DNA of 64,000 nucleotides. Origin: a virus. Every line of letters starts with the position of its first letter. Position 1 is the first letter of the stretch. The stretch is taken from positions 1 through 64,000 of IMG/VR virus record IMGVR_UViG_3300013233_000137. One strand, written 5' to 3'. Below, piece after piece: positions 16,306 through 61,164 of this stretch. The translations under genes were made by a program, and so were the position numbers. The notes beneath the pieces are model-generated. The model had not been told where the DNA came from, made no database searches, and saw only the letters and a program-made list of their open reading frames with translations.

Positions 16306-16320
16306 AACGTTCTCCTGATT

Positions 16321-16358
16321 GATTTAGGCGGCTCTGCCGCCATTGATTTACTAAATCA
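16321..16358. repeat. GC hairpin joined to palindrome
   Basis: GATTTA, then GGCGGCTCTGCCGCC (16327-16341), then the exact palindrome (16344-16358). Same build as the units at 1741-1820 and placed between genes, overlapping only the last bases of the next one. Confidence 0.85.
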
Positions 16359-17080: not shown

Positions 17081-17232
17081 AGTATCTCCTTAGCGATTGA
17101 AATGTGTTTACAGGTTCCTCTGTAGAAGAACCCACGGCAAGTGCAACTGAACTCGCTATCAATAACTCGTACAATATACTTCTGCCCCTCACCACTTGGT
17201 CTACTTATTTCAACCCATGTTTTCTCTCCCAT
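17050..17232 (-). CDS. SWIM zinc-finger protein
   Basis: 60 aa. FSCTCRGFFYRGTCKHISIAK is arranged as CxC...CxH, the SWIM zinc finger, which binds DNA or protein. AGGAGGTGGCTATGAT precedes the ATG. Overlaps the sigma-factor gene by 28 bp. Confidence 0.7.
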   Translation of the reverse strand: MGEKTWVEISRPSGEGQKYIVRVIDSEFSCTCRGFFYRGTCKHISIAKEILCLQENTSKK

Positions 17233-17882
17233 ATCATAGCCACCTCCTTTAGAATTTGTCCAATACGTGAAGCAGTCAATCCAATCTTGCTCGCAATCTC
17301 TCGGTCAGTATATCCTTCCATCTTCATTTGTACTATCTTGGCTTCCCGTTTTGATAAATGATTTAGGAAATCAGTTACCACTAACTTGTCATCATCAACA
17401 GTAAAAGGTAATATAGATATAGGCCCACTATATACATAAGCTGTATTATCTTCGTCCTCCTTACCATACTCCATACTAAAGTAGGAATGGAAATAGTGCT
17501 TAACATCTGAACTTCTCGGTATATGGATTAGCTTATTCTCTCTGAGGAAGTTCGCAATGTGACCATGTATATGGCTGACGATCCATCCCGATATCCCATT
17601 GTCCTTCAGCCGATCGACTTTGCCTATGGCATCGAGAATACCGCAATACATCTCTGCTAAGATGTCCTCTCGACTATCAGGGAAGTAAGATGCGTATCTT
17701 GCTGCTATTGTCACGCCTAGACGCATGTGTCCCATGATAATAATGTCTCGGGCATGTATGTCGCCCTCACGTAGCTTTTTGATTTGGTAAATCAATTCTT
17801 GTTCTGGGAGTGGCGATGGTAGGTTCCCCAGTTCGTGCGCTATGCCATATTTCTTATGTCCCTTAATACCCCCTAAATACAT
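17205..17882 (-). CDS. RNA polymerase sigma-70-like factor, first gene of left operon
   Basis: 225 aa. Region 2 lies at about 55-130 (HMRLGVTIAARYA, EDILAEMYCGILDAIGKVD, GWIVSHIHGHIANFLREN; the usual form is HLRLVVSIA...DLIQEG..GLI.A...FD) and region 4 at about 178-220 (LSKREAKIVQMKMEGYTDREIASKIGLTASRIGQI). As the promoter-proximal gene it could switch host polymerase to phage promoters. Two palindrome variants lie inside: centre GGT read as ELIYQIK, and centre AGG read as DFLNH. Confidence 0.8.
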   Translation of the reverse strand: MYLGGIKGHKKYGIAHELGNLPSPLPEQELIYQIKKLREGDIHARDIIIMGHMRLGVTIAARYASYFPDSREDILAEMYCGILDAIGKVDRLKDNGISGWIVSHIHGHIANFLRENKLIHIPRSSDVKHYFHSYFSMEYGKEDEDNTAYVYSGPISILPFTVDDDKLVVTDFLNHLSKREAKIVQMKMEGYTDREIASKIGLTASRIGQILKEVAMIWERKHGLK

Positions 17883-17926: not shown

Positions 17927-17978
17927 TTGATTTGTGTAATTGATTTCCTATATTGAGTAAATCAAAATTCTGAATCAT
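17927..17978. promoter_or_regulatory. 13-bp phased half-site array A
   Basis: TTGATTT at 17927 and 17940, TTGAGTA at 17953, then the inverted half-sites AAATCAA at 17959 and GAATCAT at 17972. Direct half-sites are exactly 13 bp apart. The array sits in the leader of the sigma-factor gene, downstream of a probable leftward promoter. A further palindrome with centre GGT is at 17901-17915. Confidence 0.85.
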
Positions 17979-18022
17979 CCACACCTGGTTGACATAATAA
18001 TGTAAAAGGTAAATACATTATT

Positions 18023-18051
18023 ATTATACCACAATAACCGTAATATGCAAC
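18023..18051 (-). promoter_or_regulatory. probable leftward promoter for the left operon
   Basis: Minus strand: TATAAT at 18028-18023 with TTGCAT 16 bp upstream (or GTTGCA at 17 bp). It would start RNA near 18016, ahead of array A and the sigma-factor gene. The -10 is perfect, the -35 weak. The AT-rich interval 17883-18195 has no gene. Two plus-strand TTGACA hexamers (17989, 18114) lack a clear -10. Confidence 0.5.
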
Positions 18052-18143
18052 TAAAAAATTTTATAATTCGTGTAACCTATTGGTATATAAGGAATAGAAA
18101 AATAAAATTTTACTTGACAAGATTTTGGAATAATAATTGCATA

Positions 18144-18195
18144 TTGTTTTGATATCTTGATTAAATCAAAATTCTAAATCAATTACGTAAATCAA
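18144..18195. promoter_or_regulatory. 13-bp phased half-site array B
   Basis: TTGTTTT (one mismatch) at 18144, TTGATTA at 18157, AAATCAA at 18163, 18176 and 18189; spacing between like half-sites is 13 bp throughout. Inner palindrome TTGATTAAATCAA (18157-18169). It lies between the promoter region and the 3' end of the peptidase-like gene. Confidence 0.85.
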
Positions 18196-18609
18196 TTAAG
18201 AACTCTCTATAATCCAGAACTCCTCCCAGCCATATTTGATTTGATAAATCAATCCAGAAGGATCATAGATTTGTTTACCATCCCAAGCAACGACATGCTG
18301 AGATTCCGCATACATGAATATACCGGTATGGCTTAAAGCCTCATAGCAAATTGGAATGTCAATAACTTTGCCATTGATATATGTCTTAGCGAAGAACGGC
18401 ATTGCCCAATATCCCTTCTTATATATTACAGGTAGGAGGTCTTCGATCTGGATACCACGATACTTCCTAGGTCCAATTGCATTGGGCCAGGTCACCTCAT
18501 GTGGGTCATGGTCTATTTGATTTCGTAAATCAGAAACCTGTATATCCATACACATTGCAACCGATGTCAACACACATCCGTATACCTCGCTTTGTTTTTG
18601 AAGCTCCAT
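18196..18609 (-). CDS. C39-like cysteine peptidase-fold protein
   Basis: 137 aa from the ATG after GGAGGAGAA. SEVYGCVLTSVAMCMDI has the Gly-Cys pair at the start of the first helix, AESQHVVAWDGKQIYDPSG gives the His and Asp positions of a C39/papain-like fold. Such stand-alone domains in phages may cleave peptides or peptidoglycan crosslinks, or be inactive. Two palindrome variants lie inside: centre CGT read DLRNQ, centre GAT read LIYQIK in the second permitted frame. Confidence 0.6.
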   Translation of the reverse strand: MELQKQSEVYGCVLTSVAMCMDIQVSDLRNQIDHDPHEVTWPNAIGPRKYRGIQIEDLLPVIYKKGYWAMPFFAKTYINGKVIDIPICYEALSHTGIFMYAESQHVVAWDGKQIYDPSGLIYQIKYGWEEFWIIESS

Positions 18610-18618
18610 TTCTCCTCC

Positions 18619-18645
18619 AAAAGAAAAGGGCGGGTTGCCCCGCCC
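18619..18645 (-). terminator. rho-independent terminator
   Basis: On the minus strand GGGCGGG-GCAA-CCCGCCC is followed by TTTTCTTTT. It lies 13 bp after the stop of the 18658-18858 gene and just before the ribosome site of the peptidase-like gene, so it should end or attenuate the replication operon here. Confidence 0.8.
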
Positions 18646-18657
18646 CGGGATCAAGAA

Positions 18658-18858
18658 CTATTTGATGGCCAAATACTCTTCGATAAGGCCATAGACTTCA
18701 TCAGTTGTATGGACTCTGGACAGGGTGACGACATTCTCACGCTTACTAAGCCATTTAATGAAGCCAGTGATGATATCCTTCTTGCTTTGGGCAGGCTGCG
18801 GCTTAGATTTGGACTGGGACTCAGATGTGGACTGGGATGGGAACTTCTTTGTATCCAT
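18658..18858 (-). CDS. hypothetical protein with Ser/Gln/Lys-rich start
   Basis: 66 aa from MDTKKFPSQSTSES after TTTAGGAGAGAAT. A low-complexity Ser/Gln/Lys region of about 25 residues is followed by a helical segment (DIITGFIKWLSKREN). Unknown role. Confidence 0.55.
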   Translation of the reverse strand: MDTKKFPSQSTSESQSKSKPQPAQSKKDIITGFIKWLSKRENVVTLSRVHTTDEVYGLIEEYLAIK

Positions 18859-18872
18859 ATTCTCTCCTAAAA

Positions 18873-19220
18873 TCAGTGTAAGTAGAACATCCAATTACAT
18901 GGCTTATGTAACCGTAGGAATTCCAGATCATTATTGCCGGTTAAAATCCATACCCCACTCCCGAAAGCGCACAACTTCGGAAAGGTTTCGATCTGGGCAG
19001 GTGTGAATCGAGAGCCTTTCATGTCAGGAAGTTTGACTTCGATCCAACGATGCCCATATCTAGTATGGGTTGCAAACAAATCTGGGAACCCCGATTGATA
19101 CATATTGCCATGTGTTACCAAGACAAACCAATTCTCCTTTCTAAGTCTATTGACTATTTTTTGTTGGATAACTGCTTCTGGCCCTTTTGTACCGTACTTC
19201 TTAAATTTTGTTGTTCGCAT
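18873..19220 (-). CDS. VRR-NUC type nuclease
   Basis: 115 aa. GPEAVIQQKIVNRLRKENW then GNMYQSGFPDLFATHTRYGHRWIEVKLPDMKGSRFTPAQ: the G-x-PDL and E-V-K residues form a PD-(D/E)XK core of VRR-NUC domains, found alone in phages as Holliday-junction or flap-type nucleases. Placed among replication genes, so a recombination role is likely. Confidence 0.75.
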   Translation of the reverse strand: MRTTKFKKYGTKGPEAVIQQKIVNRLRKENWFVLVTHGNMYQSGFPDLFATHTRYGHRWIEVKLPDMKGSRFTPAQIETFPKLCAFGSGVWILTGNNDLEFLRLHKPCNWMFYLH

Positions 19221-19450
19221 TTTGCCCTCACTATATTCAGAAGTATCTGAGCCATTTTCAATTTCTCGTTGACCAATTTACCAAGGGACATGTCCAGACA
19301 ACCCGTTATCAACTCCTTGGCACGTAGTAAATAGTATGCCTCATTATCCGCATCAAGAATCACTTGTAGTTGAGGGTTTTCTTTTCCTCTTACTACACAC
19401 TCTCTTAGTAATTTTTGCTGAACCTTTATTGGTAGTTTTCTTTTTGGCAT
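19154..19450 (-). CDS. hypothetical basic protein
   Basis: 98 aa, basic and helical. AAAAGGAGATAGGAG precedes the ATG. Overlaps the nuclease by 67 bp and the upstream gene by 98 bp, unusually long overlaps, but the ribosome sites are good. Unknown role. Confidence 0.55.
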   Translation of the reverse strand: MPKRKLPIKVQQKLLRECVVRGKENPQLQVILDADNEAYYLLRAKELITGCLDMSLGKLVNEKLKMAQILLNIVRAKCEQQNLRSTVQKGQKQLSNKK

Positions 19451-19727
19451 CTCCTATCTCCTTTTGACGTTTGGCTTCGGCCCTCAAATCCTTTAATGCC
19501 TTACGAAGCATCACTTGTTCTCTTAAATCTTTGACTCCTAGCAATACGTAGTTCTGCCACATGACTTCGGGTATTAGCGATCTTACTGCTATATACCTAT
19601 CGTAATATTTTACCAATGGCTTAATTGGTAGGCTCTTACGATAACGAATGCCAAGTGACCTGATCCCTTGCCTAACAGATTCTTCATCGTGCTCTCGAAC
19701 TCTCATTGGCTCTGGTGCCTCTCGCAT
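19353..19727 (-). CDS. hypothetical basic protein
   Basis: 124 aa from MREAPEPMRVREHDEE after AAAGGAGAACGAT. The first half contains SVRQGIRSLGIRYRKSLPI; the C-terminus is strongly basic (KKKTTNKGSAKITKR, KRKRKPS), suggesting nucleic acid binding. No family recognised. Confidence 0.55.
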   Translation of the reverse strand: MREAPEPMRVREHDEESVRQGIRSLGIRYRKSLPIKPLVKYYDRYIAVRSLIPEVMWQNYVLLGVKDLREQVMLRKALKDLRAEAKRQKEIGDAKKKTTNKGSAKITKRVCSKRKRKPSTTSDS

Positions 19728-20055
19728 ATCGTTCTCCTTTTTCGATAAAATCCCCAAGAATACTATCTTGGTGTTTTATGGCTATAACTAAATCTTCTCG
19801 GCTTAATTGGGAATACCTTGGAATACGTAGCTTACATCCAAGGGTCTTCAACGTGGTATATGCTATAGGTCTTGAGTCCTTTCCTTCCTCGATGATCAGG
19901 TCAATAAAACAATCACTAACAGATATTCTAAGCATCTTGGAGATTGACTCGACGGCTTCTTCCGGTACATCATTGACCTCTAGGAAGTAATCCAGCCGCC
20001 TTAACTTCTTAATCAAATTTCCAAGGGCAATACGTAAATCTATTTTTCCCCCCAT
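19684..20055 (-). CDS. hypothetical protein
   Basis: 123 aa from MGGKIDLRIALGN; AAGGAGGG lies 9 bp upstream, inside the end of the polymerase gene. Helical pattern EEAVESISKMLRISVSDCFIDLI. Translationally coupled to the polymerase; a replication accessory is possible. Confidence 0.55.
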   Translation of the reverse strand: MGGKIDLRIALGNLIKKLRRLDYFLEVNDVPEEAVESISKMLRISVSDCFIDLIIEEGKDSRPIAYTTLKTLGCKLRIPRYSQLSREDLVIAIKHQDSILGDFIEKGERYARGTRANESSRAR

Positions 20056-22217
20056 GATTGGATGCCCTCCTTCCATTTTATCTTAAGAAGTGGAATTATT
20101 TCCTTGTTCTTCTTCACAAATGTCTCCACGATGTTGGTAGCTTGATTTACTAAATCAGGAAGCATAGGTGCCATTATCTCATCATGGACATTCATAGGCA
20201 TTATATGCCACTTACAAATGCCTCTTGGCTGTAACTCCCATAACTCATACTGTAGTTGCTTGGTCAGTGTCGCTCCTGGAGACTGGATAACATGGTTACC
20301 AGCAGCCCGCATATTAGCACTTTGAATCTGGAAGGCCGCGCCGTATAGGGCACTTTGCAATGCCCCTACAGCCGTTTGTTGGCGGTCACGCCTAGTGACC
20401 TTGAGCTTGTAGCGCTTCCACTCTTTAGGTGGCTCTTGGGCCAGATCATATAGGGCTTTACAAATCTTATTCTCAAGGGTGAAGTATCTCTTGAAGCCAA
20501 ACATACTTTCAATATATTCTTTGGGTTCATGCCATTCCACGGCGGTGCCGATGCCATTAGGCTGACGCATACTGCAAAACATGTCAAAGATCTTTTGCCT
20601 AGCGGCGGCCACCCCAGTGTAATCTTTACCGAAGTCCTCGAAAGCCTTGACCGCGATGTCATGCGGTATGCCAAGCTTCGACTCTAAAGTAAACTCTGTA
20701 CCCCCATAACCCATACCAAATATACCTTGCTTACCATCTTTATACCGCGTTCCGTTGATGTACTTGTTATTGAATACTCCGGCCTTCTCCTCGGCCATCA
20801 CCTCCTCATATGTGCATCCGGGATACAACTTCGTGGCGAAGATCGCATGGATCTTCTTACCAGATAGTAATTGCTCTCGGAGGTTCTTATCTTTCCACTC
20901 CGCCTCCATAAGACTTACCTCAAAGGAGGAGAAGTCGCCTCCACATAATACCATGCCGTCAGGGGACAGAGGGAATTTCGATCGAACCTTACCATCTTTC
21001 TTGATACCTTGGGGGTTGAGACCATCGGAACCGGACATCCTTGTACTTTTGGTGCCGATGATTCGGAAGCCGGCGTGGAACTTTCCAGCTTTGATAAGCT
21101 TGTCATATAATTCAACTTCCTTTTGGGCTTCACGGGCATTCATAACTTCTCTAGCGGCCTTAGCAGCGGGGTGGTCGCCCCACTTCATTACCTCTTGTAG
21201 TATGACCTTCCCCGTTCCTTTCATCACGATCTTCTCGGTATCACTCATATTCATAGTGATATACTTCATAACCATATTGGGGGCAGTAGGGGTACCCTCG
21301 AAGGCCAAATGTGCTTGCTTCCTTAGTTCCTTCAGGCCTGAGATATCGACCTTATAGCCTTTCCATCTTACGGCGGCAACCATACAAGCTAATTCGGAAT
21401 CTACATCCCCAGTAGGAGGGGAGCCAAAGTATTTATACAAATCCCTGGTGTAGATAACATCGTTCTCAGCGTACATCTTACCGAAACGATTGAAGGCCCA
21501 GTAGGAGATATGGTGCCTAATGACCTCTGGCCAGTTGCTACCATAGGGAACGTACTTATCCTCCTTTGGATACCAGGTCTTGTCGATACCAATGTCCCCT
21601 AGCAGTAGTATTCGATCTTCCTCAATACCAAGCGCATGTAAGGCCAAGGCTTTCAGGGCTGTACTTGGCTCGAACTTCATCTCCAAATCCTTGAACATCG
21701 GATCATCGGTGTCTCGGACTTGCCATTGTGGAGCCTTGCGTTTACGTCTTGCAAAGTAAATATTATTAAGCGGTATAAGTTCCTCAAGCTTCTTGGCCAG
21801 GTTCTCTGCCAATATAGTTGGTATACGTTTAATACGTATTGGCTTACGATTCATCGTCGATTGAAAAGGACCTTTACGAGCATGGAGCATTAGGTCTAAG
21901 GCAGCTTTAGGACGTAAGCATGGTCCCTCTTGAGATGGCACTTCTTGATTCGCTAAATCAATTATGATATCTTCAGGATATGCGTCGTAATCATGGTGCA
22001 GACGTAACATATTATAGATCTTGGAGAGCTGGAACTGGTCGAAGACCAGATTGAAGCCACATACCTCATTAGCCATCATATCCTCGATGAGAGTTAAGGT
22101 ATCTATAATCGGCAGCTTCCAAATGTTATGGAGGACAACTGGGCCATCATCAATGGCATACTGGATTAAGACTGCTGGACCGTGGAGACCGCAGGTTTCG
22201 GTGTCATAGAAGTACAT
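20040..22217 (-). CDS. family A DNA polymerase with 3'-5' exonuclease
   Basis: 725 aa; start at MYFYDTETCG because it carries the Exo I motif (DTETCG) and AGGAGAGGAGT precedes it. Exonuclease occupies about 1-230. Polymerase motifs: A GGDFSSFEVSLMEAEW, B region GKQGIFGMGYGGTEF, C MNVHDEIMAP (HDE). Motif A has DFSSFE instead of the usual DYSQIE, as in several phage lineages. Replicates the phage genome. A palindrome just after motif C reads LPDLVNQATN; a variant in the exonuclease reads IIIDLANQEVP. Confidence 0.9.
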   Translation of the reverse strand: MYFYDTETCGLHGPAVLIQYAIDDGPVVLHNIWKLPIIDTLTLIEDMMANEVCGFNLVFDQFQLSKIYNMLRLHHDYDAYPEDIIIDLANQEVPSQEGPCLRPKAALDLMLHARKGPFQSTMNRKPIRIKRIPTILAENLAKKLEELIPLNNIYFARRKRKAPQWQVRDTDDPMFKDLEMKFEPSTALKALALHALGIEEDRILLLGDIGIDKTWYPKEDKYVPYGSNWPEVIRHHISYWAFNRFGKMYAENDVIYTRDLYKYFGSPPTGDVDSELACMVAAVRWKGYKVDISGLKELRKQAHLAFEGTPTAPNMVMKYITMNMSDTEKIVMKGTGKVILQEVMKWGDHPAAKAAREVMNAREAQKEVELYDKLIKAGKFHAGFRIIGTKSTRMSGSDGLNPQGIKKDGKVRSKFPLSPDGMVLCGGDFSSFEVSLMEAEWKDKNLREQLLSGKKIHAIFATKLYPGCTYEEVMAEEKAGVFNNKYINGTRYKDGKQGIFGMGYGGTEFTLESKLGIPHDIAVKAFEDFGKDYTGVAAARQKIFDMFCSMRQPNGIGTAVEWHEPKEYIESMFGFKRYFTLENKICKALYDLAQEPPKEWKRYKLKVTRRDRQQTAVGALQSALYGAAFQIQSANMRAAGNHVIQSPGATLTKQLQYELWELQPRGICKWHIMPMNVHDEIMAPMLPDLVNQATNIVETFVKKNKEIIPLLKIKWKEGIQSWGEK

Positions 22218-22684
22218 ACTCCTCTCCTCCAAACCCCTACAAGATACCATGGACGCTCGACTTTGTGTAGTTCAAAATCTGGCAGATCAGCTTTACCCCA
22301 TAGACTACGGTGACGATTGTAGATATTACCATAGTAGAAAGAGTTAGGGCCTATATTCAAATTCTGTGACCATTTATAAGGCGTTAAGAGGATTATCTCC
22401 TTATCGCATATCTTCTTGGCCTGCTCAAGAACCTGGAAGCCACGTGGCTTAGTGAGATGCTCAATAAAGTCCAGCATTAGAATAATATCGAACTTCCATG
22501 ACATGTCCAAATCTCCGAACTCCATATTACGGACAATGGTGGGGCTATATGACTCCTCGACATCAATGGTAGTAACCCTATTGAAATGCTTCGAGATCTT
22601 CTTGTCACCACAACCTATATCAAGTATTGTGGGATTCTCATATAAGGCAACACGTTGATTTACGAAATCAGCTAGACTTTTCAT
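22166..22684 (-). CDS. SAM-dependent methyltransferase (class I)
   Basis: 172 aa. PTILDIGCGDKKISKHF is motif I, TTIDVEES motif II, DIILMLDFIEHL motif IV. No DPPY/PCQ, so the target is not likely to be DNA bases by the classical enzymes; a small molecule, sugar or protein is possible. Palindrome variant (centre ACG) near the start gives ADFVNQ. It overlaps the polymerase start by 52 bp. Confidence 0.7.
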   Translation of the reverse strand: MKSLADFVNQRVALYENPTILDIGCGDKKISKHFNRVTTIDVEESYSPTIVRNMEFGDLDMSWKFDIILMLDFIEHLTKPRGFQVLEQAKKICDKEIILLTPYKWSQNLNIGPNSFYYGNIYNRHRSLWGKADLPDFELHKVERPWYLVGVWRRGVCTSMTPKPAVSTVQQS

Positions 22685-23577
22685 ACGCTCTCCATACCTG
22701 ACATGCTTGAGACGCTTTCATGTGGAACAATATAGGGTCGTCCTAGTTTCGCAGCTTGTGCACGGATTTCCTGGTAGACTGAATTATCGCTGATCTCCCC
22801 AGAGGCCCAGGCTAAGCAGCGAGTACCGAAGTTATTGCCAATGGACTTCTGAATATGGTCCATCATGCAGAAGATCTCATTACGTTTACGATGCCGTTTG
22901 ATTAAGGAGTTCTCACTATGTTTTTTCTTGATTATTGGAGCGCGATTGCCCTTCTCCTTGGCATTTTTAATTTGCCTTACTGCCTCGAACTGCATCTCCT
23001 TCGTTGGCAGTTTCGAGATGTCCCGAATATTGTATTGGGTCAGAACTCCAGCGGCAGCTTGCTGCTGAATCTCATGTGGGAGTTCCAGGAGTTTTATACG
23101 CATCTGGACCCAAGTTGTGGACTTCCCTAACTCATTAGCTATTTGCTGATAGGTTAGTTTGAAGGAGGCCAAATGTTCAACAGCTTTGGCCTCCTCCATG
23201 ATGTTGAGGTCTTTACGTAGGAGGTTCTCCCGGAGGTTGATAAGCCTAGCATCGCATTCATCAGCAGAGGTAGTCACCGTTGCACGAATGGTTGCCCAGT
23301 TAAGGATCTTATGACAGGTGAACCTCCGGAACCCCGCTATAAGACGGTATTTGTATTTCTTACCGAAGTGATCCCCAGAATGTCTCTGAACAATAACAGG
23401 TGATAGTAGGCCATTGTTGCTGATATCCCGAACAAGATCCTGTACATCTATTGGGGCTATTGCACCACGGCAGTTCAGACCCTCATCCATGAGAATCTCC
23501 TTGAGTGGAATATCTAGTATCTCATTACTTGTTTGCTGACCTTTTAGTGGTACGCCAATGTCTGCGCTCTTAGTCAT
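22681..23577 (-). CDS. ParB/KorB-like DNA-binding protein 1
   Basis: 298 aa. ParB N-terminal domain at about 20-130: IPLKEIL, NGLLSPVIVQ, KYRLIAGFRRFTCHKIL (CTP/phosphate box, usually GERRxRA) and NLRENLLRKDLNIMEEAKAVEHL (usually ENLQREDL.P.EEA). KorB-type helix-turn-helix at about 135-175 (LTYQQIANELGKSTTWVQMRIKLLELP). This is the complete binding half of a ParB. Family members bind short palindromes (parS, KorB operators), so this is the best visible candidate for binding the dispersed palindrome. Overlaps neighbours by 4 bp. Confidence 0.8.
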   Translation of the reverse strand: MTKSADIGVPLKGQQTSNEILDIPLKEILMDEGLNCRGAIAPIDVQDLVRDISNNGLLSPVIVQRHSGDHFGKKYKYRLIAGFRRFTCHKILNWATIRATVTTSADECDARLINLRENLLRKDLNIMEEAKAVEHLASFKLTYQQIANELGKSTTWVQMRIKLLELPHEIQQQAAAGVLTQYNIRDISKLPTKEMQFEAVRQIKNAKEKGNRAPIIKKKHSENSLIKRHRKRNEIFCMMDHIQKSIGNNFGTRCLAWASGEISDNSVYQEIRAQAAKLGRPYIVPHESVSSMSGMESV

Positions 23578-25499
23578 GATTTCTCCCAGGTTATTATGTC
23601 CTCGGTTCTCTTAGCTCGTTCATTCCAATGGTACTTGAAGTCCCCAAGGCTTATGGCCTGTAGCTTACGCTTGGCCTTGAGGTTCTTCATAATCATATAG
23701 TCCGTTTCCAAATGTACCAAATCAATGATTGTTGCTCCTCGGTTAGTATCCATCCCTGTACGGTGAATACGATCTTCACTTTGTATTCGGGACTCCGCGT
23801 TGAAATCATTACTGTAATAGATGATTACCGGTGAAGCCGTAAGGTTCAGACCCATGCCAGCTGCCCCTGGTTGACCAACAAATGCTAAGCGGGGATATTG
23901 ATTTAGTAAATCAATTCTTTTGGGATGGGTTCTATCGAAGGCTTCAAGGTATTCTCCGGAATCACCATCTCCTATTGTATGCCAACCACGTCCATCAACA
24001 CGTAGTACGTCCCATTTCTGCTTTTGGCAGACTTTGACAATACGGTCTATAGAACCAGTAAACCCACCATAGATTACTACACGGCCTTGCTCACTATATT
24101 CATCAAGCAGGTCAATAAGCACATCTTCCTTCGGACAAGGAACCTCTGTAGTCACGCGTTGGAACTTCGGTATCTTCTTGAACCCACCGCATTTATCGCA
24201 GATGACGTTTTCAGTCTCGGCTTCCGCCCCGTCGAACTCAGCTGTATTCTCTGGTTTCTCATATATCGGTACGTCAATACGGCCAGTACCCTTGCATAAT
24301 GGACATTCCTCCATACCTATCTGCTCCTCGGAATACTGGAATCCATCACTCAACTCCCTCATGGACTCAAGACCCGTGATGACCCTCGGAGCTGTATCCA
24401 CTAGAACCTGTGCCACTCTCAATATCTCATCAGAAGGCTTACACTCGATAACCTTATAGGTCTTCTCTGGAAGGTCGAGGCAATCCTTCTTGAAGAATAC
24501 CTTAACCAATCCAGTCATTCGTCTATATAGGGTTTCAACCTCGTTTATCGAGGTCTTAAAGAGATGATCGGCTATGGTCACATGGTCAGCTTCATATAAT
24601 CCGCACTTAGCGCACTTCTTCTCGTCATCAAGCCAAGTTACTAGATGAGGATATACTCCACCAGTTATGGGTTGCTCACGCTGTTCAACTATCGACATGC
24701 GATTCTTGAACTTATGTATATCGCCTTCACGGAGATACCCTGGACAAGCTATAGAACATTGCATCCACCAGTCAGCAGGGGATTTCGGAGCCGGTGAGCC
24801 TGACATCAATATTACGAATCCCTTATCTCCCCAGTCTTCGCGGACACCTTCTGCTAACTGCATAGCGGCTTGACTACGTAGGGCTGTAGGGGTTTTGACA
24901 CGGCTTGACTCATCGAAGATCACGACATGTGGGGCTTTACGACCTTCAGGCCATTTATCTATAACGCCCCTTAATTTGGCGTATGTCATGAACTCGGGCC
25001 TTACGTCACATCCCCATTTCCTGAACTCCAATTTCACGGCTTGAAGCGCACTTCGTGGACCTATCCAGAATACATCTTCAAAACCACTTTCCTCGATAAG
25101 TTCAATGGCAGCCAGAGTTTTACCACATCCCATCTCGGCAGCCCAAATTCCGTAGTGAACAAGGAGCCCATGGGCTACCATCTCAAGCTGATGTTTGAAT
25201 AATGTTCTTGTAGTGATATAAGGGGCAGGAGCCTGGTCATAGATCTCAAATGGATCGTTACCCATGAGGTAATTGAGTTGGAACCAATTATGTCTACAAT
25301 CCTTTACTGACCAGACCTTACGGGGTGGGGCCTCGAAGCCATGCCATTTGGCACCTTGCATAGCTTTGACTTCGTCTTTTAGCACTTCATTATATGGGAA
25401 GGACAAGAATAATCTGTCTCCTTCTTTCGCTATCTTAGTAGTCACCCAACGATTTCCTCCTCGCAACTTACATTCTCTAACATCGGTAGGCATGTTCAT
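23574..25499 (-). CDS. SNF2-type DEAD/DEAH helicase
   Basis: 641 aa. WAAEMGCGKTLAAIELI (Walker A), VIFDESSRVKT (DExx), LMSGSPAPKSPADWW (motif III), FVGQPGAAGMGLNLT (motif V) and QSEDRIHRTGMD (motif VI, arginine finger). Two zinc clusters are inserted (CAKCGLYEADH; CPLCKGTGRI...CDKCGGF). SNF2 enzymes remodel or unwind DNA during replication and recombination; phage versions are common beside family A polymerases. A palindrome reads RIDLLNQYPRL just before motif V. Confidence 0.9.
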   Translation of the reverse strand: MNMPTDVRECKLRGGNRWVTTKIAKEGDRLFLSFPYNEVLKDEVKAMQGAKWHGFEAPPRKVWSVKDCRHNWFQLNYLMGNDPFEIYDQAPAPYITTRTLFKHQLEMVAHGLLVHYGIWAAEMGCGKTLAAIELIEESGFEDVFWIGPRSALQAVKLEFRKWGCDVRPEFMTYAKLRGVIDKWPEGRKAPHVVIFDESSRVKTPTALRSQAAMQLAEGVREDWGDKGFVILMSGSPAPKSPADWWMQCSIACPGYLREGDIHKFKNRMSIVEQREQPITGGVYPHLVTWLDDEKKCAKCGLYEADHVTIADHLFKTSINEVETLYRRMTGLVKVFFKKDCLDLPEKTYKVIECKPSDEILRVAQVLVDTAPRVITGLESMRELSDGFQYSEEQIGMEECPLCKGTGRIDVPIYEKPENTAEFDGAEAETENVICDKCGGFKKIPKFQRVTTEVPCPKEDVLIDLLDEYSEQGRVVIYGGFTGSIDRIVKVCQKQKWDVLRVDGRGWHTIGDGDSGEYLEAFDRTHPKRIDLLNQYPRLAFVGQPGAAGMGLNLTASPVIIYYSNDFNAESRIQSEDRIHRTGMDTNRGATIIDLVHLETDYMIMKNLKAKRKLQAISLGDFKYHWNERAKRTEDIITWEKS

Positions 25500-25993
25500 T
25501 TCTCCTCTAAGATGAAAGTCCCATCGGGTAACATCGTCTTGGCGTAGGAGTCCCAGATTAAGCCATAACCATGGGCCTCGAACTCCAATAGTAATGTACC
25601 AAATAGTGTCCGTCTAACTTGTTCCTCATCTTCTTTGAAGATCAAATTAGTACGTATGGTGTCCTTCCACTTCCTAAGTGTCCCATATAATAAGTAAAGT
25701 TGATTTGATAAATCAATTTTACTTATCGAGGCGTACCATCCTTTGTTGATCTCATCAACCAATATTGAAATGTTTATCGCCTCCAAAAATAAATGGCCAT
25801 TACGTATAGTACGCATTGGCTCCTCGGTCCTACCTGTTAATTCGTTTAATGTCAGAGCATAAGTTAGTGGCTCATTGAACTTTAGACTAGAGTTATCTAG
25901 TGTTCTGGTTGGATATCCATTATTGGAGGTCTTGCAGAACTCCAAATATTTTGGCCAGTTGATTCGAGATTCACTAACCCATACTATTTCCAT
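25496..25993 (-). CDS. hypothetical protein
   Basis: 165 aa; opens EIVWVSESRINWPKYLEFCKTSNNG. Palindrome with centre GAT reads IDLSNQLYLLYG. No family recognised. Located between the helicase and a probable ssDNA-binding protein, so a replication accessory is plausible. Confidence 0.55.
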   Translation of the reverse strand: MEIVWVSESRINWPKYLEFCKTSNNGYPTRTLDNSSLKFNEPLTYALTLNELTGRTEEPMRTIRNGHLFLEAINISILVDEINKGWYASISKIDLSNQLYLLYGTLRKWKDTIRTNLIFKEDEEQVRRTLFGTLLLEFEAHGYGLIWDSYAKTMLPDGTFILEEK

Positions 25994-26011
25994 GTGTTCT
26001 CCAAGAAATAA

Positions 26012-26078
26012 CTAGGGGAGAGGCAATCAGGTTCAGGAGGAACCTTGTGGGCCTCACAGCTACCACCCTCTCCCCTAG
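26012..26078 (-). terminator. long-loop stem, possible attenuator
   Basis: A perfect 12-bp inverted repeat, CTAGGGGAGAGG (26012-26023) and CCTCTCCCCTAG (26067-26078), sits between two genes. On the minus strand it is followed by TTATTTCTT. The 43-nt loop is longer than normal for a terminator, so an RNA control element is an alternative. Confidence 0.5.
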
Positions 26079-26090
26079 TGAGCGATTGCA

Positions 26091-26723
26091 CTACCGATCG
26101 CGTTTGTCGTCCTCGGCTACCTCTTCACTCTCGGCGCTTGCGAACTTTAGTGCCTGCTTCTTGATCTCCTCCATAGGCGGTGTCTCGAGAGGCGTTGAAC
26201 ATTCAACGACCAACGGACCATACCATGAGTACTTCTTCGTCTCGATGAAATGAGTCTTAAACGTGGCGGCTTTGTGCATCAGCTTAAAGATGTTCTTAGC
26301 CTCACGTCTTGCGGTGATACTGCAACAGAAATATGTTGCAAAGGTCTTGGCAGTGGGGATGTATACCAGGAACTCTGGGCCCCACAGGCACCCTGAATCC
26401 TTTACCGTGGAATTATCGGCAATAGTCTTGAAGGTATCGCTCTCTTTCTCATGTGAGAATATAGGTTTCTCACCATTGGTATCTAATGCTGTCCAGCGCA
26501 TATGAATAATCAAGATATCTACTTGATTTGATAAATCAACGACATCATCTTCATTACGAACCAGGCCCCAATTACCGGCCTCAACTTGTTTTCTTTTACA
26601 GATTTTGGAATTCGTATCTGCGACTTGCAGACGGGGAAGAAACTCCCCACTCGAAACTTCTTCATTAAATGCCTCTTGGGTCACTGGCAATGCTGGCATG
26701 TCCTCGAATTTAACAACGTCCAT
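26091..26723 (-). CDS. putative single-stranded DNA-binding or replication protein
   Basis: 210 aa. Beta-rich centre (FLVYIPTAKTFATYFCCS) and an acidic C-terminal tail (SAESEEVAEDDKRDR), a layout common to phage ssDNA-binding proteins. Sequence identity to a named family was not recognised. Palindrome with centre GAT reads VVDLSNQVDI. Confidence 0.5.
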   Translation of the reverse strand: MDVVKFEDMPALPVTQEAFNEEVSSGEFLPRLQVADTNSKICKRKQVEAGNWGLVRNEDDVVDLSNQVDILIIHMRWTALDTNGEKPIFSHEKESDTFKTIADNSTVKDSGCLWGPEFLVYIPTAKTFATYFCCSITARREAKNIFKLMHKAATFKTHFIETKKYSWYGPLVVECSTPLETPPMEEIKKQALKFASAESEEVAEDDKRDR

Positions 26724-26806
26724 TTGAGCTCCTTGAGATTAGTATGGCCTGGGACCATCACTAGGCCCCAGGCTGATTTAGTAAATCACTTCCAAGCCAT
26801 ACAATG

Positions 26807-26995
26807 CTATCCTATACCATATCTTACGAGATTATGGGCATGTAGAAAACTAGCCCACCCTCGTTTAAGGCCCTCTGCAATTATCCATGAAAGAAATTCC
26901 TCTTCATGTTGTTTACAAAGCCAGATAGGATTGCCCTGGATATAGACCTTTTCTGCTGGTAATTTGAAGTAACGATCACAGGCTATACAGTCCAT
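26807..26995 (-). CDS. small zinc-binding protein
   Basis: 62 aa. MDCIACDRYFKLP, then PIWLCKQHEEEFLSW gives a CxxC...CxxH site. AAGCCATACTTATATGGGGATACT precedes it. Its leader and trailer hold a GCCTGGG/CCCAGGC hairpin and a palindrome copy (26774). Confidence 0.6.
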   Translation of the reverse strand: MDCIACDRYFKLPAEKVYIQGNPIWLCKQHEEEFLSWIIAEGLKRGWASFLHAHNLVRYGIG

Positions 26996-27031
26996 AGTAT
27001 CCCCATATAAGTATGGCTTAAACGTTTGTCA

Positions 27032-27982
27032 CTATGCTACGGCTTCGGCGGTCTTCTCTGCTGCCGCTGCCGCTTTCTTTGCCTCACGCTCGGCCTTACG
27101 CTTGGCCTTAAGCTCATCCTGTTCAGCCTTCTTCTGTTCCCAGGTTGCCTTGGCAACCTCGATAGTCTCGGGGTCCATACGCAGAACCCACTTCATCGCC
27201 ATACCAAATCCCTCTTCAGGCGTTGACAGGGAATGAGCTGCACAGAGTGCGCTTGCTGTGGTGCCACCTGCCAGTTCCTCTTTCAGTTCAGCGAGAGGAC
27301 GAAGACGCGGGGCTGCAACGAACTCCTCGGGCTTCGCATCCCGGCCTTCACGCTTGGCAGCACGGATCTCGGCCAGACGGGCTTTGACCTCTGGAATGAA
27401 CTTCTGGGGCGTATCAGTCTGGGCGCGATCCAGGAAGTTTTCCTGCTCATCTTCAGGGAGCTTTGCAAGGTGGTTAGCATTGCTGACACAAATGTCACCA
27501 TCATCTACCAATGCCGCAATCTTCTCATTGAGCTTAACCAGACCCAAACGATCATGCAGCCATCCGGTACTTACGGAGAGCTTCTCGGCCAGTGCTGACA
27601 TGGAGAGGAACGGATCAATACTCAGAAGGCGGTTAAGCTGCTTGGCATACTCCGCCGGACGGGTTTCGATCTTATGCAGATTGGTAGCCAACTGAGCTTC
27701 CAGAACACCTGCTTCATCCATGTCCTTCATAAGCATCGGGATCTCATTCAGGCCAGCATCCTTCGCTGCATTGAATCGCTGCAAGCCATCAATAAGGCCG
27801 ATGTACTCTTCCCCAGTTTCCGGGTCCTTACACATACGGCCCAGAGGCGGATTCAAAATACCTTTGGTACGTATGGAGTCCACCAACTCCAGATAGCCTT
27901 CGCTGTCACGCTTCACCTCGCGCAATGCTGATGGATTCTCACGAATCCGATGCAAAGCAACCATTTCCATCGTTTCTGCCAT
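27032..27982 (-). CDS. ParB-like nuclease-domain protein 2
   Basis: 316 aa. ParB fold at about 8-115: VALHRIREN, LVDSIRTKGILNPP, YIGLIDGLQRFNAAKDAG (box usually GERRxRA), TNLHKIETRPAEYAKQL (usually ENLQR..L.P.E). A helix-turn-helix follows (SMSALAEKLSVSTGWLHDRLGLVKL). The last 45 residues are Ala/Lys/Glu coiled coil. It differs from its neighbours in being GC-richer and in carrying no palindrome copy, which may mean more recent arrival. Second candidate binder of the palindrome. Confidence 0.8.
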   Translation of the reverse strand: MAETMEMVALHRIRENPSALREVKRDSEGYLELVDSIRTKGILNPPLGRMCKDPETGEEYIGLIDGLQRFNAAKDAGLNEIPMLMKDMDEAGVLEAQLATNLHKIETRPAEYAKQLNRLLSIDPFLSMSALAEKLSVSTGWLHDRLGLVKLNEKIAALVDDGDICVSNANHLAKLPEDEQENFLDRAQTDTPQKFIPEVKARLAEIRAAKREGRDAKPEEFVAAPRLRPLAELKEELAGGTTASALCAAHSLSTPEEGFGMAMKWVLRMDPETIEVAKATWEQKKAEQDELKAKRKAEREAKKAAAAAEKTAEAVA

Positions 27983-28036
27983 TTTGTTTCTCCTATATTA
28001 AAACGACTATCAATCTACATAGATTGATTTGATTTA

Positions 28037-28723
28037 CTAAATCAACGTAAATAACTTCTCGATATTCTTCTTATTTCCAATGGCTAGATCAAGGGTCGAA
28101 TACATCTGCCTTGAGAATATGCACTTGAAATCCTCTGGAGCATTGTACTCCGAGATGTATACCTTATGCCCTTCTGCTGTTTTAGCCCTACACCACTTCC
28201 AGAAGGCACTATGATCAAATGTCATACCATATCCCTGTGTACCTTGATAAGGTGGATCGCAATATATTATACTATTGGATGGGATATCCAAATAGCAATA
28301 ATCTTGGAATATTAATTGGGCACCTTGTAATTTCTTAGATTGCTTTACCGCTGATCTGTATGCCTCTGCCACCTCATCTATACCCTTACCTCTACGCCAC
28401 CCACCAAAGAACTTACCACCAAAGGATAAGGCGAACCCCACATATGAGGCCAAAGGGCCCAAGGAGTATTGTAGCATACCATATTGGTATTCATTTAACT
28501 CTGCTTCGCTCTTAGGTATAAGATCAATATGATCACGAATGAGGCGCAAGGCTGCTATGGCATGACTATTTACGTCTGCTCCTATTCGTGGGCCGGTGAC
28601 TTGGCAGATACTATTCCCGCCTCCAACGAAGGGCTCTACATAGTATTGTCCTGGTTTACGGGACCTCAATATCTTAGGAAGGATGAGCCTAGCTATTCTA
28701 GTCTTACTGCCGATGTACTTCAT
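28037..28723 (-). CDS. Dam-type DNA adenine-N6 methyltransferase (D12 class)
   Basis: 228 aa. KYIGSKTRIARLILPKI (motif X), YVEPFVGGGNSI (motif I, FxGxG) and IIYCDPPYQGTQGYG (motif IV, DPPY). The order X-I-IV defines the Dam/D12 class. No endonuclease partner is adjacent, so it is an orphan methylase for restriction protection or regulation. A palindrome (28030) overlaps its stop, and another (28736) its leader. Confidence 0.85.
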   Translation of the reverse strand: MKYIGSKTRIARLILPKILRSRKPGQYYVEPFVGGGNSICQVTGPRIGADVNSHAIAALRLIRDHIDLIPKSEAELNEYQYGMLQYSLGPLASYVGFALSFGGKFFGGWRRGKGIDEVAEAYRSAVKQSKKLQGAQLIFQDYCYLDIPSNSIIYCDPPYQGTQGYGMTFDHSAFWKWCRAKTAEGHKVYISEYNAPEDFKCIFSRQMYSTLDLAIGNKKNIEKLFTLI

Positions 28724-28780
28724 TCTCTGTCCTTATGATTTACTAAATCAGGGCCGGGTGTGAGCCATATATACATGGGT

Positions 28781-28925
28781 TTAAGGGTCTTCGCCCTCCC
28801 ATAGCTTGTATACTTGGGTCAGATATACAACGGCGACATAGGCCACTACGGGGTACTTCCTTCCTCGTATATTAGGATGCCCGGTCTTTGCCTCCCATGA
28901 CTCGCGGCCCTGATTTAGTAAATCA
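28781..28925 (-). other. open frame without clear start (possible gene fragment)
   Basis: On the minus strand an in-frame stretch reads DLLNQGRESWEAKTG, then RKYPVVAYVAVVYLTQ and VYKLWEGEDP-stop. No ATG exists in frame; an internal GTG would give 23 residues. Since it begins with the palindrome in the usual frame it may be a decayed gene or a short gene with an unusual start. Confidence 0.3.
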
Positions 28926-28938
28926 CCCTCTTCTCAAA

Positions 28939-28977
28939 TTGATTTGGTATCTTGATTAAATCAAAATAGTAAATCAA
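28939..28977. promoter_or_regulatory. 13-bp phased half-site array C
   Basis: TTGATTT at 28939, TTGATTA at 28952, AAATCAA at 28958 and 28971: a 39-bp near-palindrome with 13-bp phasing. It lies about 33 bp downstream of the predicted start of the leftward transcript, a position suited to blocking elongation. Confidence 0.9.
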
Positions 28978-29016
28978 TTTGAGACTTGTGCCACTGTCAC
29001 TTGTCGCGCACCTTAC

Positions 29017-29045
29017 ATTATAGGTATTTAGCCCCTAGAAGTAAA
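29017..29045 (-). promoter_or_regulatory. sigma-70 promoter for the leftward replication operon
   Basis: Minus strand TTTACT (29045-29040), 17-bp spacer, TATAAT (29022-29017). RNA would begin near 29010 and read array C, then the Dam-type methylase and the replication genes. Confidence 0.75.
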
Positions 29046-29306
29046 ATGGTTTTCAGAATTATTTTCAAAAGGCCCAAGTGTAACGTTTCGTTACACTGTA
29101 ACATATCTTTACCTACTACTAGGGCCCTTAAACTTCTCTCTATAGGGATTTTTTTTCTTTTTTTCTCTATAGAGCAACTTAATATATAAAAATAGTAAGT
29201 TGTAAGTGACTATATACCAACATGTTACAAGGGCCTATTTACTGTTTTCTGGAAAACCTGGTAACCGGCTTGTAACATGTTGTCATATAACGACTTAGAA
29301 AAACGC

Positions 29307-29335
29307 TTGACTTACTGCTTTGAAATGCCTATAAT
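29307..29335 (+). promoter_or_regulatory. consensus sigma-70 promoter for the rightward operon
   Basis: TTGACT (29307-29312), exactly 17 bp, TATAAT (29330-29335). Transcription would start near 29342, 20 bp before array D. Together with the promoter at 29017-29045 it makes a divergent pair in an otherwise gene-free 28926-29470 interval. Confidence 0.85.
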
Positions 29336-29361
29336 ACATTATACAGCAAGGGGTTATGGGA

Positions 29362-29414
29362 TTGATTTGATATTTTGATTTGAATCAAAATACTAAATCA
29401 ATTATAGAAATCAA
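29362..29414. promoter_or_regulatory. 13-bp phased half-site array D
   Basis: TTGATTT at 29362 and 29375, GAATCAA at 29382, AAATCAA at 29395 and 29408. Like half-sites are 13 bp apart and the first 40 bp form a palindrome. It lies at about +20 to +73 of the rightward transcript, followed by a standard palindrome copy at 29443 before the first gene. Confidence 0.9.
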
Positions 29415-29470
29415 ATAGGAAGACGTATTAGTCGCTGGAAATTGATTTAGTAAATCAGAAAGGAGGACCA

Positions 29471-29644: not shown

Positions 29645-29832
29645 AACTGTATACGAGTTTTGAGGCAGCAAGAAACAGTATTGAGCCAGTGTTTTTACCT
29701 AAATTCTGTTACCTAAAGGACAATGAGGCGATGTGTGGAAACTGGTGCCCACACTTCCATATCATTAAAACCGGTAGTGTGAAGATAACATGTAGTCCAC
29801 AAGAGGTTTTCATTAAAGTCGAGGAGCAATGA
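29641..29832 (+). CDS. small MCGNWCP-motif protein, paralogue of 5142-5348
   Basis: 63 aa. Shares MCGNWCPHF, a preceding FCYLKD and a following TCSPQEVFIKV with the leftward gene at 5142-5348 (MCGNWCPAF ... KCFPQENIFEI). Probably a small metal-binding or disulfide protein of unknown role. ATGA overlaps on both sides. Confidence 0.65.
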   Translation: MKLYTSFEAARNSIEPVFLPKFCYLKDNEAMCGNWCPHFHIIKTGSVKITCSPQEVFIKVEEQ

Positions 29833-32516
29833 TGCCCACAAGAACTGAAGCCATTAAACGCTTTCTCACCGCCAAAACCCATGCCGATCTGGCAGGTCTG
29901 TACTCCCATGATATGGAATGTCAGGTCAACGTGGCCCAGGATGATGGCGAACGTGTAGAAGGTGACTACCAAGGTAGGCAGTGGCATGGTTGGAGTAATG
30001 GTTTGGAGACCTGGAAGAGCTTCCGAATACCGTATAAAGCAAACTCCAAGCCAGAGTATACCGATAAGGAGATGTCCTTTGATTTAGTAAATCATTCCGA
30101 AGGTATAGGGATGACTGGATGGAACTGGAAACTAGGAGTTAGTAAGTGGGTTGCCTTCGACTTCGATGCCATCACGGGTCATAGTGATAAGCATGCCAGT
30201 AAACTAACCCCCAATGAGCTTGAGGAGATCAAAAATGTTACAATGGCTGTGGATTGGATTACAATTCGTAAGAGTACATCGGGAAAGGGGTTACACCTAT
30301 ACGTTTATCTTGATGACATTAGGACGGTTAATCATACGGAGCATTCAGCATTGGCAAGGGCCATTCTCGGGAAGCTCTCCGCTATAACAGGATATGATTT
30401 CCAGTCAAAGGTCGATGGGTGCGGGGGTAACATGTGGGTATGGCACCGTAAGATGACCAACACCGATGGCCTAACACTTATAAAGAAAGGTATAAAACTC
30501 TATGACATACCTCCGAATTGGCGTGATCACCTGCAAGTAGTTACCGGAAAAAGGCGAAAGGTCAACATCCCGGATGTAGACAATATCGATGATTTCGAGG
30601 AACTACTGGGGCAGGGTACGTATGTCACTTTGGATGAGGAGCATAAGGCACTAATCACCTACCTCACGGAGAAGAACCTCTTCTACTGGTGGGATCAAGA
30701 CCATCATATGTTGGTTACCCATACGCTTAACCTCCAGGACGCCTACGATGATCTGAATATGAAGGGGATCTTCAAGACCAATTCCCCTGGGACTAATCGT
30801 GATGAGCAGAACTGCTTTGCCTATCCGATCAAGAACGGCGGCTGGGTGGTAAGGCGATTCACGAAGGGGATCAATGAGGACCTATCATGGGAGCAAGACG
30901 GCAATGGCTGGACGAAATGCTTTCTAAACCGTTCTCCTAACCTCAAGATCGCAGCTGTGAGTTCCGGTGGTCTTGAAAATGAGAGAGGGGAGTTCATCTT
31001 CCGCCACGCTCAGATGGCCCAAGACGCCGCTCTCAAGCTGAATGCCAATGTGACCTTGCCTCCTTGGGCACTTGGACGTAAGGCCAGTATTAAACAACAT
31101 AAAGACGGTAGGCGAATCGTATTGGAGATGGATCATCAGGCCGAGGATAGTATGGAGAAGGGCTTACAAGGTTGGCTACTGGAAAAGGGTAAGTGGAAGA
31201 GGATCTTCGACGTGGCAGCTACGGAAACCCGTGCTGAGCTTACTAACTATGATGATTTAGTAAGACATTTAGTGACCGAGGGATCAGATGACGCAGGATG
31301 GGTGATTAAAACCGATGAGGAATGGCAGCAAGAGCCTTACCAGCATATCAAGGTCGCCGTGGAAAGCCTTGGCTTCAAGGCCACAGAGGTTCGCGGGATA
31401 CTTGGGGCCAGTATCTTCAAGCCCTGGAAACTGGTTAATCAGCCATTTCAACCGGAATACATCGGTGATAGGCAGTGGAATCGGGACGCCTCCCAATATC
31501 GTTTTATGCCTACTCTAAACCGCGATGACTTGAGCTACCCTTGTTGGATGGCTATTCTAGATCACATAGGTAAGAATCTCCAAGAAGCCGTAGCCAACAA
31601 TGGTTGGGCCAAGGCCAATGGCATTCTCACTGGTGCTGATTATCTCAAATGCTGGATAGCTTCCCTACTGCAAGAGCCATTACAGCCACTACCTTACCTG
31701 TTTCTCTACGGTCCGCAAGGTAGTGGTAAATCCATTCTACCCGAGGCGCTGAGTCTGTTGTTCACCAAGGGCTACGCTAGAGCAGACATGGCCTTGAAAT
31801 CTAAAGATGGTTTTAATGGCGAACTACGTAGTGCTATATTGTGTTCTATTGAGGAGACGGACTTAAACCGTAATAAGCAAGCATCGTCACGTATCAAGGA
31901 CTGGGTGACCAGTCTTCAACTACCTGTTCATGTGAAGTGTAAAACCCCGTTCTTAGTACCGAACTCCACACATTGGATTCAGACTGATAACGACCAGGCG
32001 GCATGTCCAGTATTTCCGGGCGACACCCGTGTCGTGGTGATCTACGTTGAGAGCGTCGATCCCATTAAGTTAATCCCAAAGAAGAAGTTGATACCAATGC
32101 TAGAGAAGGAGGCCCCGGACTTCTTATCAAGTTGTCTTGGCATCGAATTACCGGCCTCCCCTGATAGGCTTAACATCCCAGTTGTGACAACGGCGGAGAA
32201 ACACTCCATCGAACTAGGTAACCGTACAATGCTTGAGGTCTTCATCGAAGAACAATGCCACCATGTCCCCGGGGAGATGATCAAGTTCTCAGCGCTTTAT
32301 GACCGATTTCGAGAATGGTTAGAACCAAGTGACGTCAATAGCTGGTCGAAAATACGTTTTGGCCAATACTTCTCTGCCAATATGCATAAGTACCCCAAGG
32401 GCCGTTCAACTAAGAATGGGCAATGGCATATCGGTAATATAAGTTTAACTAAGGTTCCAGTCACAGGGGCTCCCTATATTGTTCAAGATGATATGCTTAG
32501 GGAGGGTAAACTATGA
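29829..32516 (+). CDS. primase-helicase (AEP-like primase plus D5-type helicase)
   Basis: 895 aa. N-terminal primase-like part: KWVAFDFDAITGHSDKH (acidic pair) and TIRKSTSGKGLHLYVYLD (SGxGxH), as in archaeo-eukaryotic primases. C-terminal superfamily 3/D5-like helicase: YLFLYGPQGSGKSILPEAL (Walker A), SAILCSIEETDLNR (Walker B with acidic pair), then a sensor region VPNSTHWIQTDN. Primes and unwinds DNA for the family A polymerase. A palindrome gives FDLVNHSEG; a weaker one at 31252 gives DDLVRHLV. Confidence 0.85.
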   Translation: MMPTRTEAIKRFLTAKTHADLAGLYSHDMECQVNVAQDDGERVEGDYQGRQWHGWSNGLETWKSFRIPYKANSKPEYTDKEMSFDLVNHSEGIGMTGWNWKLGVSKWVAFDFDAITGHSDKHASKLTPNELEEIKNVTMAVDWITIRKSTSGKGLHLYVYLDDIRTVNHTEHSALARAILGKLSAITGYDFQSKVDGCGGNMWVWHRKMTNTDGLTLIKKGIKLYDIPPNWRDHLQVVTGKRRKVNIPDVDNIDDFEELLGQGTYVTLDEEHKALITYLTEKNLFYWWDQDHHMLVTHTLNLQDAYDDLNMKGIFKTNSPGTNRDEQNCFAYPIKNGGWVVRRFTKGINEDLSWEQDGNGWTKCFLNRSPNLKIAAVSSGGLENERGEFIFRHAQMAQDAALKLNANVTLPPWALGRKASIKQHKDGRRIVLEMDHQAEDSMEKGLQGWLLEKGKWKRIFDVAATETRAELTNYDDLVRHLVTEGSDDAGWVIKTDEEWQQEPYQHIKVAVESLGFKATEVRGILGASIFKPWKLVNQPFQPEYIGDRQWNRDASQYRFMPTLNRDDLSYPCWMAILDHIGKNLQEAVANNGWAKANGILTGADYLKCWIASLLQEPLQPLPYLFLYGPQGSGKSILPEALSLLFTKGYARADMALKSKDGFNGELRSAILCSIEETDLNRNKQASSRIKDWVTSLQLPVHVKCKTPFLVPNSTHWIQTDNDQAACPVFPGDTRVVVIYVESVDPIKLIPKKKLIPMLEKEAPDFLSSCLGIELPASPDRLNIPVVTTAEKHSIELGNRTMLEVFIEEQCHHVPGEMIKFSALYDRFREWLEPSDVNSWSKIRFGQYFSANMHKYPKGRSTKNGQWHIGNISLTKVPVTGAPYIVQDDMLREGKL

Positions 32517-61152: not shown

Positions 61153-61164
61153 ACTATTCCTTTT

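Follow-up and report, generated by a model that had tools for sequence, protein, structure and literature searches.

Proteins of the ParB/KorB/Noc family read dispersed palindromes of 13 to 16 bp, as described for the O_B operators of KorB (PMC11790492) and for the NBS sites of Noc (PMC8429893). KorB of plasmid RK2 is a ParB-family CTPase that uses promoter-proximal and distant palindromic operators and slides along DNA as a clamp for as much as 1.5 kb (PMC11790492). Noc of Bacillus subtilis is a ParB paralogue without ParA whose sites are dispersed 16-bp palindromes (PMC8429893, PMC7383237). In the temperate phage L5, the repressor reads stoperators that are dispersed over the phage and also lie at early promoters; each stoperator is an asymmetric 13-mer that points in the direction of transcription and is bound by a repressor monomer (PMC9283540). 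Here we describe a comparable set of sites in a virus represented by a 69,052-bp record (IMGVR_UViG_3300013233_000137, hereafter G000; GC content, 45%), positions 1 to 64000 of which make up the analyzed stretch, i.e., the window. Four arrays, A to D, are built from the half-site TTGATTT (F) and its complement AAATCAA (R), and palindromes of the same half-site are scattered over the whole genome. MrpR, the master repressor of SPbeta, likewise reads one 15-bp element that recurs in many intergenic regions; this protein has a recombinase fold, its SPBRE sites are far fewer than those in G000, and the part of the report available mentions none in genes or in spaced arrays (PMC10516654).

As in the KorB system, a ParB-family protein with CTP-binding motifs (ParB1) is encoded, and several palindromic putative operators, some of them promoter-linked, are distributed over the replicon. 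The phage differs from RK2 in having no detectable ParA, a density of about one site per kb, and extra arrays of directly repeated half-sites after promoters. A ParB-like protein without ParA together with dispersed palindromes is also the combination found in Noc, whereas the phage site has a different sequence that drifts between lineages and is accompanied by promoter arrays. In eight genomes, no ParA was found, and neither an integrase (PF00589) nor an HTH_3 repressor (PF01381) above the cutoff was found in these records, which may be incomplete; asymmetric, oriented sites and the integrase/immunity repressor that characterize L5 are thus not seen here. The mode of action would be that of KorB/Noc-type or stoperator-type systems. 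The phage system does not belong to the L5 stoperators, because the sites are symmetric and unoriented and an integrase was not found, nor is it ParABS, because the ParA ATPase was not found. The explanation that we tentatively favor is that the arrays are operators in transcript leaders which, together with the dispersed palindromes, are bound by one reader, most likely ParB1, which would repress transcription or form a roadblock.

Structure and orientation of the arrays

Array A (17927-17978, minus strand) has F half-sites at 17927, 17940, and, in the degenerate form TTGAGTA, 17953, followed by R half-sites at 17959 and, as the degenerate GAATCAT, 17972. Its mirror partner, array B (18144-18195, plus strand), has a degenerate F half-site (TTGTTTT) at 18144, an F half-site at 18157, and R half-sites at 18163, 18176, and 18189. 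Array C (28939-28977, minus strand), which belongs to the leftward methyltransferase/ParB2 operon, contains F half-sites at 28939 and 28952 and R half-sites at 28958 and 28971, and array D (29362-29414, plus strand), which belongs to the rightward primase operon, contains F half-sites at 29362 and 29375 and R half-sites at 29382 (GAATCAA), 29395, and 29408. Read directly from the sequence, the half-sites are spaced by 13 bp throughout, and the inner step from F to R is 6 bp in A, B, and C (a 13-bp palindrome) and 7 bp in D (14 bp). These positions, the exact spacing, and the inner palindromes agree with the original prediction, which was made from the sequence of the window alone. An FNR-type reading of the 14-bp center of D (TTGATNNNNATCAA) was rejected because the centers of the other three arrays are 13 bp long.

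The window contains 95 copies of TTGATTT, where 13.3 would be expected. The pattern TTGATTTAAATCAA shows no enrichment as such. When a chain was defined as at least four half-sites in a 13-bp register, each with at most one mismatch, only B, C, and D were recovered from the genome, and none of 200 genome shuffles gave such a chain; array A is in register too, but falls outside this definition, with two mismatches in each of two of its five half-sites. Aligned in transcript sense, all four arrays show the order F13F(6/7)R13R13R, with the last R missing from C. The arrays are therefore copies of one oriented element, which points leftward in A and C and rightward in B and D. This reversal of A and C relative to B and D was missed in the original prediction. 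The arrays form two pairs, i.e., A/B flanking the promoter region of a sigma-factor gene, with A in the 5' leader of that gene, and C/D flanking the divergent ParB2/primase promoters. Other tandem TTGATTT half-sites, 18 to 24 bp apart, occur at 1736-1820, 10578-10667, 16319-16358, and 61163-61247, where they alternate with GGCC-type GC hairpins, have a full palindrome at the end, and lie near gene starts.

Promoters beside the arrays

Arrays A, C, and D are each preceded by a TATAAT box, the end of which is 44, 39, and 26 bp away, respectively, and this places the starts of these arrays near +37, +32, and +19; the original prediction gave distances of about 33 bp for C and 20 bp for D. A predicted sigma-70-like promoter, TTTACT-17-TATAAT (29017-29045, minus strand), reads into C, and another, TTGACT-17-TATAAT (29307-29335, plus strand), reads into D. 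Just upstream of B lies a sigma-54-like element with two mismatches (TGGAATAATAATTGCA; 18126-18141, plus strand). At the place equivalent to array B, two syntenic relatives, G001 (84.4 kb) and G003 (59.7 kb), have an exact TGGCAC-N5-TTGCT, at 74916 (plus) and 10175 (plus), respectively, which is the only exact TGGCAC-N5-TTGCW match in each genome. The sigma-54-type sequence is also present in the array A/B region at L249 4136 (plus), and an exact one is found in G005 in the opposite direction.

The two pairs could alternatively flank replication origins, the arrays being iterons and their reader an initiator or an origin-silencing protein. The pairs do flank A+T-rich segments, and the ParB2-primase segment adjoins the primase gene and has conserved GTAAGTC-type repeats. 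However, the pairs are arranged around promoters, with TATAAT boxes 26 to 44 bp upstream, cumulative GC skew gives no origin signal, and some 55 palindromes would be left unexplained, so we consider this reading improbable. Inverted repeats of the GTAAGTC/AAGTCSTT type occupy 29000-29340 of the window and recur in the ParB2-primase gap of L168, L208, L210, L171, and many other relatives; they may themselves be origin elements.

Arrays in related phages

A search based on the primase gave 248 viral relatives, of which 80 were kept. In G001 and G003, which share about 55 to 70% identity with G000 in most core proteins, half-site repeats stand at the same four places as A to D, but their form differs: G001 has doublets (two half-sites 5 bp apart) spaced by 13, 14, or 25 bp, and G003 has an 18-bp unit (AATAATTTAATTCAGTAA). 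The usual form of the family in the ParB2-primase gap is a doublet with an offset of 5 or 6 bp (TGATTTGATTT) that faces outward on each side. It was found in 27 of 55 nonredundant ParB2-primase regions, compared with 0.19 expected per shuffled set, and in both orientations in 18 of the 55. The exact doublet is present in 12 of 19 whole contigs, in one to six copies each, mostly at the ParB2-primase gap and beside the sigma gene. Viral contigs matched by the array-specific DNA pattern had no dispersed sites, and these matches were judged to be due to chance. Among INPHARED phages, no near relative of G000 was found, and its 895-residue primase-like protein had no tblastn match there.

What is conserved across relatives is the placement of the arrays and the identity of the half-site, whereas the exact 13-bp period is specific to one lineage; the leader array is the more general element, of which the window shows the geometry that a single lineage uses. 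The importance attached to the exact period in the original prediction is accordingly not borne out. Its operator reading keeps the promoter linkage and the operator-like character, because the same four places are occupied in relatives, and loses the period; the variation in spacing between close relatives, which it had counted against itself, affects the period and leaves the arrays in place.

Dispersed palindromes

Inverted half-site pairs with the 10-bp spacing described earlier for the dispersed sites number 47 in the window. Palindromes of the form TGATTT-NNN-AAATCA, with at most one mismatch, occur about 55 times in the 69-kb record, both in genes and between them, and are spread over the whole genome. 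Their spacing is more even than chance, with a coefficient of variation of 0.65 to 0.74 in three phages, compared with about 0.97 for random positions, and they are enriched three- to fourfold within 60 bp upstream of gene starts. Sites within genes are retained at the same position in the orthologue in 11 of 24 cases (46%) in G001 and 13 of 25 (52%) in G003, against 3% and 2%, respectively, for random in-gene positions, which indicates strong selection on a DNA element within coding sequence. The palindrome at 25701-25715, for example, falls on the same codon in G000, G001, and G003. The center of the sites has no strand bias (AGT:ACT = 19:19 in transcript sense in G000), as expected of a symmetric DNA site.

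This symmetry bears on two other explanations. In an immunity system of the L5 type, a repressor would keep a lysogen silent by preventing initiation at the arrays and halting elongation at stoperators dispersed over the genome. Operators at promoters combined with many dispersed sites, their enrichment just upstream of gene starts, and the differences in half-site specificity between lineages described below would suit such a system; L5 sites, on the other hand, are asymmetric and oriented (PMC9283540), whereas those of the phage are symmetric and without strand bias, and with neither an integrase nor an HTH_3 match above the cutoff in the eight genomes we regard it as unlikely. The sites could also be RNA elements, i.e., hairpins in 5' leaders and before genes that control translation or decay. 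The common transcript-sense order of the arrays, the long A+U hairpins that could form, and the many sites just before Shine-Dalgarno sequences, such as TGATTTAGTAAATCA (29443-29457, plus strand) before that of the first gene after array D, are in keeping with this. Yet many sites lie deep inside long genes, the AGT/ACT center is unbiased, and the family form of the arrays is a direct repeat, which does not fold; control by RNA is very improbable. No Rfam family was matched at the arrays. Two dispersed palindromes, at 28736-28750 and 28911-28925 (minus strand), lie at the borders of a segment (28736-28925) whose two ends form a conserved inverted repeat of 21 bp. In three phages (the others at L124 4165-4290 and L144 ~2260-2358), changes in one arm of this repeat are compensated in the other, and the segment may be a structured leader RNA or a pair of DNA sites.

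Half-site changes between lineages

Most relatives use the word TGATTT, while TGAGTT is found in L168/G011 and L207-209, TGATTC in L223/G020 and L189-192, and TGATAT in L204 and L210. In phages that have dispersed palindromes as well, these repeat the array word of the same phage; for example, G020 contains 32 exact copies of TGATTCNNGAATCA (75 with one mismatch), and G011 contains TGAGTT-3-AACTCA. Because the word changes in parallel in arrays and palindromes, a single DNA-binding domain probably reads both, which speaks to the original question of whether one protein or two are involved. The half-site thus occurs in various geometries, with centers of 0 to 4 bp in inverted sites and spacings of 5, 6, or 13 bp in direct repeats.

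Candidate binding proteins

The preferred candidate binder is ParB1 (22681-23577, minus strand), with ParB2 (27032-27982, minus strand) as second choice. ParB1 matches PF02195, PF17762, and PF08535 (ParB_N and HTH_ParB), and the residues of its GxRR and ENxxR motifs, intact in G000, are invariant in 28 homologues. Its nearest solved relatives are Noc, which is the closest, and Spo0J; KorB (8qa8) was also matched (E = 1e-15). In ParB2, the ParB_N motifs are degenerate, part of GxRR/ENxxR having been lost, and a two-sequence ParB2 alignment used as the query detected no viral relative.

In the helix-turn-helix of ParB1, K152R is the single column that sets the two TGAGTT lineages apart from all others; ParB2 has no such column. 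The alignment of K152, through the conserved GKS motif, with K171 of Caulobacter ParB, which contacts parS (PMC7383237), is suggestive only. Two ParB proteins and 15- to 17-bp palindromes similar in form to parS and NBS might also be taken to indicate partition, the sites being the parS-like elements of a ParABS system; with ParA undetected in the eight genomes and the sites genome-wide instead of clustered, we give this hardly any credence.

The sigma factor was considered as a reader and is unlikely to be one, because its recognition helix varies widely among phages that share the constant TGATTT half-site. A KORA profile matched it weakly and below the threshold (0.075); KorA, the partner of KorB that has an operator of its own, was not identified in the phage, no search aimed at it having been made. 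The protein at 26091-26723, once a candidate binder, was dismissed because its confident model consists mostly of strands and is not a helix-turn-helix fold; its weak structural matches, none of which reaches an E value of 0.001, include several single-stranded DNA-binding proteins.

Proposed regulation and evidence against it

Beyond a shared reader, we infer the following steps, including which protein binds and whether it represses. Early transcription would start from two control regions that work in both directions, one at the sigma-factor gene and the other between the ParB2 and primase operons, and each of the four resulting transcripts would carry one of the arrays as an operator in its 5' leader. 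The leaders covered would be those of the sigma factor, the rightward transcript after B, the ParB2 operon, and the primase operon; the transcript after B, which lacks a gene in its own direction, might be an antisense RNA. The scattered palindromes would be recognized by the same DNA-binding domain as the arrays. Bound at an array, the reader would block initiation, promoter escape, or early elongation and so shut down or time the early, replication, and sigma-factor genes, with negative feedback on ParB2 as well. Each scattered palindrome would take one dimer, load the reader along the genome, and damp transcription locally; the density of about one site per kb matches the 1.5-kb reach reported for KorB.

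Several observations weigh against this explanation. The promoter preceding array B is weak by sigma-70 criteria, and a rightward gene after B is absent. G015 has arrays and almost no dispersed palindromes, and G004 encodes both ParB proteins and the sigma factor but has neither arrays nor palindromes, so ParB and the sites are not tied one to one. K152R is a weak match, as exclusive columns number two out of about 300 and the independent lineages are few. Finally, G024 (IMGVR_UViG_3300031950_000001; L546-L553), an unrelated 144-kb phage in which no ParB was found, has 36 TGATTCNNGAATCA sites; about 38 copies of a 24-bp palindrome (AAATTTGATTCCGGAATCAAATTT) contain this site.

The same operator system might therefore be served by a reader other than ParB, namely, an uncharacterized phage protein or a host DNA-binding protein. 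The ParB proteins without sites in G004 and the near-identical palindrome without ParB in G024 speak for such a reader, as does the lack of a family match for the majority of the small phage proteins. A single host factor is argued against by the TGATTT doublets, which are kept across phages of 32 to 60% GC; G024, in turn, shares no protein with G020, and its longer site may be a coincidence (there are 4^7 14-bp palindromes). A non-ParB reader appears somewhat unlikely.

A broader proposition, possible but doubtful at present, is that in widespread uncultured phages without a detected integrase, a ParA-less, Noc-like ParB clamp regulates transcription genome-wide, loading at palindromes about 1 kb apart, many of them held in place within genes, and reading half-site arrays in the leaders of the sigma-factor and replication transcripts, and that its word has switched repeatedly, the arrays and some 50 to 75 scattered sites changing in concert. 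If true, the biology of ParB, KorB, and Noc would extend to phages as genome-wide gene control, and the lineages would provide, in nature, a series of switches in specificity, each of which required a protein, promoter arrays, and dozens of scattered sites to change together. The evolution of dispersed operators and the recurrence of sites at about 1 kb would then become directly testable.

Neighboring genes and other repeats

Around the arrays, coding is mostly leftward and turns rightward from 29471. Downstream of array A, the sigma-70-family factor (17205-17882, minus strand) matches phrog_351 (1.4e-21), and homologues lie near the same arrays in relatives. A second, small sigma-factor-like protein is encoded at 7548-8072 (minus strand; phrog_351, 1.9e-10) and has no match in G001. 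DNA polymerase A (20040-22250) is encoded between array B and ParB1, and a large protein at 23574-25499 is read as a helicase. The protein at 26091-26723 is conserved in most relatives, and ParB1, ParB2, and this type of protein keep the same order in nearly all relatives' loci that cover them. A D12-class adenine methyltransferase (28037-28723) lies next to ParB2, and two small proteins precede the primase-like protein (29829-32516) on the plus strand. G001 has a transfer-messenger RNA gene (L124 1900-2284, minus) and a tRNA gene (L127 3965-4050, minus). A 12-mer unrelated to the half-site, ACCCAAGACCCA, is present in 11 copies in the G000 record.

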